NCBI RefSeq assembly: GCF_000474945.1
Contig: NZ_KI440836.1
Coordinates: forward strand, 233,917-297,916
Direction of reading: 5' to 3'
DNA length: 64,000 nt
Source of the DNA: Solimonas soli DSM 21787
GTDB taxonomy: Bacteria > Pseudomonadota > Gammaproteobacteria > Nevskiales > Nevskiaceae
Shown here: piece after piece, positions 38,849 through 40,738 of the stretch
Layout of the letters: each line of letters opens with the position of its first letter
How positions within the stretch are numbered: the first letter of the stretch is position 1
The notes under the pieces: model-generated
Told to the model about the DNA's origin: nothing
Databases searched by the model: none
What the model saw: only the letters and a program-made list of their open reading frames with translations
Translations under genes and position numbers: made by a program

Positions 38849-39790
38849 ATGGATACCGAACACAACGAAGTGCTGATCGAGGCGCGTGGCCTGACACGCC
38901 GCTACGGTCCGACCGTCGCCGTCAGCAATCTCGACCTGACTCTGCGCAAGGGCGAAGTGCTGGGCCTGCTCGGCCCGAACGGCGCCGGCAAGTCGACGAC
39001 GATGAAGATGCTGACCGGCAATCTGGCGCCGAGCGAGGGCGACATCCGCATCAAGGGCGTGTCGCTGCGCGAGCAGCCGAAGCTGGCCAAGCGTCATCTC
39101 GGCTATCTGCCCGAGCAGCCGCCGGTCTATCCGGAGCTGACCGTCGACGAATACCTCGGCTACTGCGCCGGCCTGCACGGCATCGCCAACAAGGAGCTCG
39201 CCGCGGCGCTGGCCTCGGCCAAGCGCGACTGCGGCCTGTCCGACGTCGGCCATCGCCTGGTCGGCAATCTGTCGAAGGGTTACCAGCAGCGCGTCGGCAT
39301 CGCCCAGGCGATCATCCATCGCCCGCCGGTGGTGATCCTCGACGAGCCGACCGTCGGCCTCGATCCGATCCAGATCCGCGAGATCCGCACGCTGATCGCC
39401 GATCTCGGCAAGAGCCACAGCGTGATCCTGTCGAGCCACATCCTGCCGGAGATCCAGGCGGTGTGCGGGCGCGTGATGATCATCGCCCGCGGCCTCGTCG
39501 TCTACAACGAACCGATGGCGGCGACGCAGGGCGAGGCCTCAGTGGTCGCCGGCTTCAAGCGCGCGCCGGAAGCGGTGTATCTCGCCGACATCGAGGGCGT
39601 CGACGGCGCCAGCCCGCTCGGCAACGGCCGTTTCCTGATCAGCCCGCGCAAGGGCGCCGATCCGCGCGAGGCGATCGCCAGGGCCGCCGCGCAGTTCGAC
39701 TGGGGCCTGGTCGAGCTGCACGCGCAGCAGCGCACGCTGGAGGAAGTCTTCGTCGAACTGACGTCGGGCGATCTGAGGGCCGCGGCATGA
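38849..39790 (+). CDS. ABC transporter ATP-binding protein, GldA-like
   Basis: 313 residues with Walker A GPNGAGKST, signature LSKGYQQRVG and Walker B VVILDEPTVGLD; the C-terminal 90 residues are the extra domain seen in ABC-2 exporters. It belongs with the permease, GldG-like and DUF4340 genes downstream. Gld homologues serve gliding in Bacteroidetes, but this four-gene set occurs in many non-gliding gammaproteobacteria, with unknown substrate. Its stop overlaps the first 35-residue minigene (ATGA). Confidence 0.9.
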   Translation: MDTEHNEVLIEARGLTRRYGPTVAVSNLDLTLRKGEVLGLLGPNGAGKSTTMKMLTGNLAPSEGDIRIKGVSLREQPKLAKRHLGYLPEQPPVYPELTVDEYLGYCAGLHGIANKELAAALASAKRDCGLSDVGHRLVGNLSKGYQQRVGIAQAIIHRPPVVILDEPTVGLDPIQIREIRTLIADLGKSHSVILSSHILPEIQAVCGRVMIIARGLVVYNEPMAATQGEASVVAGFKRAPEAVYLADIEGVDGASPLGNGRFLISPRKGADPREAIARAAAQFDWGLVELHAQQRTLEEVFVELTSGDLRAAA

Positions 39791-39894
39791 GCGCAGCGCC
39801 GCGAGGTTCCGTCATCTCCGAACGCGTCGGGGGGTCGCTGCGTGGCGGCCATTCCCGCACCCACCTTCGCTTCGCTCAGGGCACCGTGTCATGA
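39787..39894 (+). CDS. 35-residue minigene, first copy
   Basis: The frame opens with an ATG overlapping the stop of the ABC ATPase gene and ends in a TGA overlapping the next ATG. The product starts MSAAPRGSVISERVGG and is basic, with no membrane helix or known motif. It is encoded by the first unit of a 104-bp tandem repeat. Translation is not proven; it may matter only as a relay for ribosomes between ATPase and permease genes. Confidence 0.45.
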   Translation: MSAAPRGSVISERVGGSLRGGHSRTHLRFAQGTVS

Positions 39895-39994
39895 CCGCAG
39901 CTCCGCAGAGTTCCGTCATCTCCGAACGCGTCGGGGGGTCGCTGCGTGGCGGCCATTCCCGCACCCACCTTCGCTTCGCTCAGGGCACCGTGTC
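39787..39994. repeat. 104-bp tandem direct repeat, two copies
   Basis: Units 39787-39890 and 39891-39994. From 39806 and 39910 onward, 93 bases are identical through the ATG and six bases beyond; the first 19 bases of each unit differ at a few positions. Each unit begins with ATG and leaves the downstream permease reading frame intact. Confidence 0.95.
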
Positions 39995-39998
39995 ATGA
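39891..39998 (+). CDS. 35-residue minigene, second copy
   Basis: Near-identical to the first copy (starts MTAAPQSSVISERVGG; the last 28 residues are the same). It starts on the TGA of copy one and its own TGA overlaps the permease ATG. The ATPase, both minigenes and permease thus form a continuous chain of ATGA junctions. The first three codons resemble the permease's own MTA start, suggesting how the duplication arose. Confidence 0.45.
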   Translation: MTAAPQSSVISERVGGSLRGGHSRTHLRFAQGTVS

Positions 39999-40738
39999 CC
40001 GCCATATTCAACATCGCGCGCACCGAGTGGCGCCGCATCTTCCTGTCGCCGCTCGCCTGGGCGGTGCTGGCCGTCGTGCAGTTCATCGTCGGCTTCGTCT
40101 TCATCAACCTCCTGCTGCAGTACGCCGGCGCCGCCGGCGAGAACAGCGATCTCGGCGTCTCCGACGTGGTCGCCGGTTCGCTGTACGGCTTCTCGACGGT
40201 GCTGCTGCTGCTGATCATGCCGCTGATGACCATGCGCCTGTTCGCCGAGGAGCGGAAGACCGGCAGCATCACGCTGCTGTTCTCGGCGCCGGTCTCGCTC
40301 ACCGAGATCGTGCTCGGCAAGTTCGTCGGCGTGCTCGGCTTCGTCGCCGTGGTCATCCTGCTGCTGGCGCTGATGCCGCTGTCGCTGGCCTGGTCGACGC
40401 ATCTCGACTGGGGCCGCGTCGCCGCCGGCCTGCTCGGTCTGTTCCTGCTGATGACGGCCTTCGCCGCCGCCGGCCTGTTCGTGTCCTCGCTGACGCGCGA
40501 GCCGACCATCGCCGCCGTGGCGAGCTTCGGCCTGCTGCTGGTGATCTGGCTCGCCAACATCCTGGCCTACAACGACAGCGTGCCGTTCCACCAGGTGTTC
40601 AGCTACCTGTCGCTGATCGATCACTTCGAAAGCCTGCGCCGCGGCGTGTTCGCGAGCGCCGACGTCGTCTATTACCTGCTGTTCTCGGCCCTGTTCCTGT
40701 GGCTGACGGTGCTGCGCCTCGACATCGAGCGCAACTAG
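39995..40738 (+). CDS. ABC-2 type permease, GldF-like
   Basis: 247 residues, six hydrophobic segments, beginning MTAIFNIARTEWRRIFLSPLAW; the conserved MRLFAEERKTGSITLLFSAPVS loop identifies the GldF/ABC-2 family. It forms the membrane channel with the upstream ATPase. An open frame continues upstream through the tandem repeat, but homology starts at this ATG. Confidence 0.9.
   Translation: MTAIFNIARTEWRRIFLSPLAWAVLAVVQFIVGFVFINLLLQYAGAAGENSDLGVSDVVAGSLYGFSTVLLLLIMPLMTMRLFAEERKTGSITLLFSAPVSLTEIVLGKFVGVLGFVAVVILLLALMPLSLAWSTHLDWGRVAAGLLGLFLLMTAFAAAGLFVSSLTREPTIAAVASFGLLLVIWLANILAYNDSVPFHQVFSYLSLIDHFESLRRGVFASADVVYYLLFSALFLWLTVLRLDIERN

Follow-up and report, generated by a model that had tools for sequence, protein, structure and literature searches.

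Two short, nearly identical reading frames lie in tandem between the ATPase and permease genes of an ABC transporter operon in Solimonas soli DSM 21787, and the question is what they are and how they came to lie between these two genes. The window (the whole stretch of DNA that was analysed, 64,000 nucleotides in length) has the following features at this locus:

38849 to 39790, plus strand: ABC transporter ATPase gene, the upstream partner (Pfam ABC_tran, 3.1e-33)
39787 to 39894, plus strand: mini-ORF copy 1, 35 amino acids (MSAAPRGSVISERVGGSLRGGHSRTHLRFAQGTVS), with an ATGA overlap at either end
39891 to 39998, plus strand: mini-ORF copy 2, 35 amino acids (MTAAPQSSVISERVGGSLRGGHSRTHLRFAQGTVS), with an ATGA overlap at either end
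39995 to 40738, plus strand: ABC-2 permease gene, the downstream partner, with start and stop taken from the sequence itself (Pfam ABC2_membrane_2, 1.8e-18)
39844 to 39899, minus strand: hairpin core 1 with its P1 arms (GACACGGTG...GGGTGCGGGA), a covariance-model match; exact core at 39855-39890
39948 to 40003, minus strand: hairpin core 2, a covariance-model match; exact core at 39959-39994

The first-pass annotation of this DNA had described a 104-nt tandem duplication in which each unit is a full ATG-to-TGA frame. This is borne out: a repeat search returns a pair of 104 nt at a spacing of 104, with copy 1 running from the ATG at 39787 to the TGA at 39892-39894 and copy 2 from the ATG at 39891 to the TGA at 39996-39998 (35 codons each). 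All three junctions, when read in the sequence, are the ATGA overlaps that had been claimed: the TGA of the ATPase gene lies within the ATGA at 39787-39790, shared with the start of copy 1, the two copies meet at the ATGA at 39891-39894, and copy 2 meets the permease at the ATGA at 39995-39998. Between the copies there are five differences in 108 nt, which give S2T, R6Q, G7S and one silent change, and these three substitutions are the only differences between the peptides, at the few N-terminal positions already remarked on. The same operon continues with a gene for an ABC_transp_aux protein and then one for a DUF4340 protein.

These two frames belong, as tandem copies, to a dispersed family and are more than a local repeat. 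The family is recognized by a hairpin core that, on the minus strand of the window, consists of GACACGGTG, a variable inner stem (P2) and GGGTGCGGGA, all enclosed by an outer stem (P1) that differs from locus to locus yet is self-complementary. GACACGGTG and GGGTGCGGGA are the invariant core columns of a 39-sequence alignment, the sequences of which were chosen with that motif. Cores 1 and 2 correspond to the covariance-model matches G000:C2:273760-273815 (minus strand, E 1.9e-12) and G000:C2:273864-273919 (minus strand, E 6.8e-13) in the own genome (G000), both being among the sequences from which the model was built. Read in reverse complement, the left arm of core 2, GGCGGCCAT (39948-39956), matches the permease start, ATGACCGCC (39995-40003), at all but one position.

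A BLAST search with the unit at E 0.01 over 100 genomes, with at most eight candidates scored per genome, gave matches in 20 genomes (own included), mostly to the distal part of the unit. The exact core pattern was matched 130 times, in 22 of the 59 genomes scanned (the own genome among them), compared with six times for a reversed control pattern, and the covariance model identified 42 copies in 9 of the 11 genomes of the window's genus. In a scan of named genomes, the core is present, among the matches listed, in the Nevskiales (Solimonas, Nevskia, Panacagrimonas, Sinimarinibacterium) and in Gallionellaceae-type records (Gallionella, Sideroxydans, Ferriphaselus, Ferrigenium and 'Nitrosomonadales bacterium'); scattered matches listed in other phyla look chance-like. 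Twelve viral contigs (L409-L420) also have an exact match to the pattern.

The outer stem covaries. In 113 Nevskiales cores, taken without selection on pairing, 7.23 of 8 adjacent positions are Watson-Crick paired, compared with 3.98 when the arms are shuffled among cores; 57 distinct left 8-mers are found, and 105 of the 113 cores form at least six pairs. For 26 Gallionellaceae-type cores, which have just 11 distinct 8-mers between them, the same comparison gives 6.92 and 4.67. The inner-stem test fits 89/113 Nevskiales cores but only 1/26 Gallionellaceae-type cores. In the 39-sequence alignment, the outer-stem figures of which are biased upwards since its sequences were drawn from cores with at least six of eight outer-stem pairs, 93.7% of cells pair (64.7% when shuffled), with a covariation score of 0.706 against 0.178 in the shuffles. 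Two of five covariation measures in this alignment (pairs changed on both sides and further pair types) were no higher than in the shuffles. Columns 10-14 and 44-51 of the alignment have a conserved GA-CAC / GTG-CGG-GA arrangement, which we take to resemble the kink-turn consensus.

A substantial share of the cores sits in stop-start overlaps. We defined a chain as a long coding ORF leading through an NTGA or TGATG overlap into at least one mini-ORF over the core, which in turn overlaps a second long coding ORF. This arrangement is present at 30 of 122 cores (24 distinct junctions), compared with 14 of 3143 random positions; the 122 are those of the 130 exact matches that lie in retrieved loci, and some of them are chance-like (L187, L189, L200, L207). 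A test admitting single units only gave 19/123 cores against 6/6198 random positions, and a loose overlap test gave 29/101 cores. Among named records, 20/54 cores are in chains compared with 1/1702 random positions; these cores come from 50 records of Nevskiales, Gallionellaceae/Nitrosomonadales or unplaced Gammaproteobacteria, other matching records having been omitted, and a few of their loci are shared with the 122-core set. When junctions were assigned with a cruder gene caller, 22 of the 30 chain-positive cores came out as co-directional, along with 9 chain-negative ones; it labelled five of the chain-positive cores convergent or divergent and left three unclear. At L105 and L123 a further frame, of 47 or 55 codons, belongs to the overlap chain; it has the look of a genuine small membrane protein, which we take to be CcmD-like.

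Within the genus, 28 of the 42 covariance-model matches are in chains under a looser coding criterion, a count obtained with settings for which there is no null. These are distributed as 19/20 in S. marina, 4/6 in the own genome, 4/7 in G005 and 1/1 in G008, with 0/8 in G002, G003, G004, G006 and G007 under the same criterion. Even the one S. marina copy that fails contains a 34-codon frame bounded on either side by ATGA. The copy at G001:C30:94764 (L118) is a 34-codon unit, the strand of which is wrong in the looser genus and named-record counts.

The genes on either side are diverse. Both neighbours match Pfam families at all 20 junctions examined (of 24), and the pairs, as interpreted from these matches, include two oligopeptide-transporter ATPases, MurD/FtsW, histidine kinase/response regulator, FtsI/MurE, MlaF/MlaE, aminotransferase/homoserine dehydrogenase, MinD/MinE, NuoE/NuoF, TPR protein/BamB and DUF444/SpoVR; MraY/MurD was added by eye at L029. 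In the own genome there are six covariance-model matches, two of them in the window operon. One of the others lies between FAD-dependent oxidoreductase and FGGY kinase genes, one lies between GT2 glycosyltransferase and formyltransferase genes, and two end contigs C4 (L242) and C3 (L241), where they adjoin the tail of RNase HII and the head of DnaE. The two contig-end copies, which are the own-genome copies that fail the chain test, would represent a single rnhB/dnaE junction, the assembly having probably been broken there by a tandem array. BLASTN of the unit had been proposed as a way of finding it at other operon junctions of the genome; at E < 0.001 it recovered this locus and one weak match only, the latter being a diverged relative that lies between murE and murF. 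This seventh own-genome copy has 62 codons, opening at an ATGA overlap and closing at a TGATG; in relatives the same junction is a plain ATGATG (G001, G008) or has another ending (G006, G007).

Many cores lie away from overlaps, some paired inversely and some after stop codons. REPIN-like inverted core pairs are seen at L022, L023, L034-L037, L264, L269 and L286, and a second core type, GACACGTTA...CCGNTTGCGGGA, is paired with the first at L063, L068, L069, L109, L114, L121 and L123. Twelve of the 122 cores (10 loci) sit inside one open frame; L187 is probably a chance match, and the others appear to be in-frame inserts within a long open frame (L019, L020, L021, L035, L038, L266, L270, L285, L288). 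At L254, L258, L267 and L280 the core lies just past a stop codon and the gene tail is seemingly repeated on its far side, these tails looking like acyl-CoA dehydrogenase ends. Duplicated tails of this kind prompted the idea that the spacer in overlap units derives from the upstream gene tail, which was dropped: upstream protein tails and unit peptides are dissimilar by eye.

The units are inserts relative to empty sites in related genomes. Reading by eye covered 30 of the 34 genomes with matches for the ABC junction, 19 of 35 for MurD/FtsW and 18 of 35 for FtsI/MurE. At the ABC junction three loci have an insert (two units in the own genome and one 24-codon unit each in G006 and G007) and 27 have none, the latter comprising 19 ATGA, four TGATG, one TAATG and three without a clear overlap; within the genus the insert is present in 3/11 genomes. 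MurD/FtsW has a unit in 1/19 genomes and FtsI/MurE has two units in 1/18, and the remaining 18 and 17, respectively, have a direct NTGA overlap. The first-pass annotation had suggested a repeat that spreads while preserving coupling, and the results fit: the hairpin is dispersed among other stop-start overlaps, both overlaps are kept, and relatives have empty sites.

The spacing of tandem copies bears on how the frame is kept. At overlaps it is 101 (four times), 104, 107 or 134, all of the form 3n+2 (the last passing the loose test only); in two further overlap tandems it is 102, and the copies fuse in frame to give 68 codons. Off overlaps the spacings are 102, 102, 129, 132, 132, 133, 137, 141 and 157. 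Because only frame-keeping cases can pass the chain test, support for the 3n+2 rule comes from these tandem spacings and from a few empty-site cases. All 20 S. marina units are open in the coding frame, and stops interrupt the other frames in 10/20 and 12/20. The open frame is weak evidence by itself, as an in-frame stop arises in only 1.7% of column-shuffled S. marina units, and on this ground it was dropped as proof.

Taken with the empty sites, these observations point to a REP-like element that is probably tolerated in operons by supplying a bridging cistron for termination-reinitiation. At the present locus a hairpin element would have inserted at the ATPase/permease ATGA overlap in an ancestor common to the own genome, G006 and G007, with duplication of the unit in the own genome following later. 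What would let the unit persist in operons is that its length (usually 3n+2 nt), open frame and NTGA ends make a complete bridging cistron: a ribosome finishing the ATPase would restart on the mini-ORF, terminate and restart on the next, so that permease translation would be maintained, with the mini-ORF peptide a likely by-product. We infer that the frames are translated, that ribosomes re-initiate on them and that the element is mobile in the strict sense; it is possible that the permease initiates independently of both short frames. Placement in overlaps may reflect survival, with operon-breaking inserts being lost, or targeting, with no insertion elsewhere in operons.

A more specific reading, which we put forward tentatively and regard as possible rather than probable, is that the hairpin repeat class is specialized for stop-start overlaps: it would target NTGA and install a bridging cistron with a Shine-Dalgarno-like tail, its outer stem being an inverted copy of the target, perhaps acquired via hairpin-primed template switching. 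The order would then be target, core, inverted target, spacer, target. By eye, the arm that follows the core at several Gallionellaceae-type loci repeats, in inverted form, the stretch preceding the ATGA at the same locus, and hairpin template switching could be the source of such a locus-specific inverted arm. GGAG, GAGG or AGGA lies ahead of the downstream start in 14/24 unit tails and 17/24 upstream gene tails, compared with 459/3633 arbitrary NTGA sites, most of which do not begin a gene; the tail of the window unit itself has no strict Shine-Dalgarno match.

That the mini-ORFs are a regulatory spacer, tuning the ATPase:permease ratio or delaying permease translation, is unlikely. Their strict placement between the ATPase and permease accords with such a role, as does the duplication, which alters the number of re-initiation steps here. 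This idea is weakened because the same unit type recurs between unrelated genes and is absent from the ABC operon in 8/11 genus genomes; furthermore, the three carriers vary in unit length and copy number.

Somewhat less likely again is that the conserved part works as an RNA structure (a regulatory hairpin, possibly a kink-turn) in which the ORF is incidental. Two covarying stems about an invariant internal motif in the 39-sequence alignment, and the presumed likeness of the GA...CGG-GA arrangement to a kink-turn, are what such a structure would predict. Against this, both orientations are found in overlaps: relative to the mini-ORF, the core is read one way in 27 of the 30 chain-positive cores and the opposite way in three (the two window units and one other). 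G-U pairs account for only 12/351 outer-stem cells of the alignment, which is better suited to a DNA-level process, and Rfam covariance models run on 10 loci gave no match on the element (one sub-threshold match lies elsewhere in L024).

It is very improbable that the units code for functional small proteins, even with open frames that have a start and a stop and a Shine-Dalgarno-like motif before the next start at 14/24 junctions. The mini-ORF peptides show no sign of conservation: neither window peptide matches a Pfam family, the differences among the 20 S. marina units are without third-position bias (0.246, 0.351 and 0.326 in the second half), and the G006 and G007 units differ at 10 nt in eight codons, all eight changes being nonsynonymous, while the frame and both ATGA overlaps are kept. 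Moreover, in the window units and in one other the core is read from the strand opposite to that used in the remaining 27/30. A chance local duplication without a wider family is scarcely credible, the sparse own-genome BLAST result being set against the dispersal of the core over 22/59 genomes and the chain results of 30/122 and 28/42.

Inserts amid tightly packed operons of essential genes would usually be expected to be harmful, yet this family occupies several. It offers a natural replicated experiment on ribosome termination and restart, in which a bridge of approximately 100 nt, present singly or in up to three copies, recurs at tens of junctions and can be compared with empty sites in relatives. 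It also suggests a route by which new small ORFs enter operons.

Several known systems are comparable. REP and REPIN sequences, mobilized by RAYT (TnpA-REP) proteins, are likewise short hairpins dispersed near genes, as singles and inverted pairs; in PMC3733652, intragenic REPs are on record and super-families are defined by a GTAG or CGTC tag. In contrast to REPs, which have this tag at their end, the present element lacks it and has a GACACGGTG/GGGTGCGGGA core, a locus-specific outer stem and a large share of copies in stop-start overlaps. A RAYT mobilizer is not supported: a Y1_Tnp (PF01797) profile search at E 0.001, which covered 12 genomes and then a second set of 12, found no match in the own genome, and the strict core is absent from 35 Y1-transposase loci (mostly 1.5 kb on each side), with one loose, chance-like match in L312; a degenerate flanking core might escape this pattern scan. 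With respect to MITEs, direct repeats (GCATGAGC or GGTTATGA) flank the units and are indistinguishable from element ends.

Rickettsia palindromic elements, described in PMC10969869 as persisting in coding DNA through frame retention, are also palindromic and frame-keeping, and 12/122 of our cores similarly lie within one open frame. Those elements lengthen the host protein, whereas the present units form a separate cistron bridging two genes; the window units sit between two ORFs, not inside one. The junctions themselves are of the type for which termination-reinitiation coupling is documented in PMC6728339, at ATGA/TGATG overlaps of gene pairs in E. coli and H. volcanii, and the window units have the same stop/start overlaps. 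Among the titles and abstract openings searched, with most subscription journals outside the scope, none described a repeat family located in stop-start overlaps. Tolerance of palindromic repeats in coding DNA is known, and it is the overlap placement and the bridging cistron that appear to be new: in contrast to ordinary coupled overlaps, an inserted repeat has here turned one overlap into two or more.
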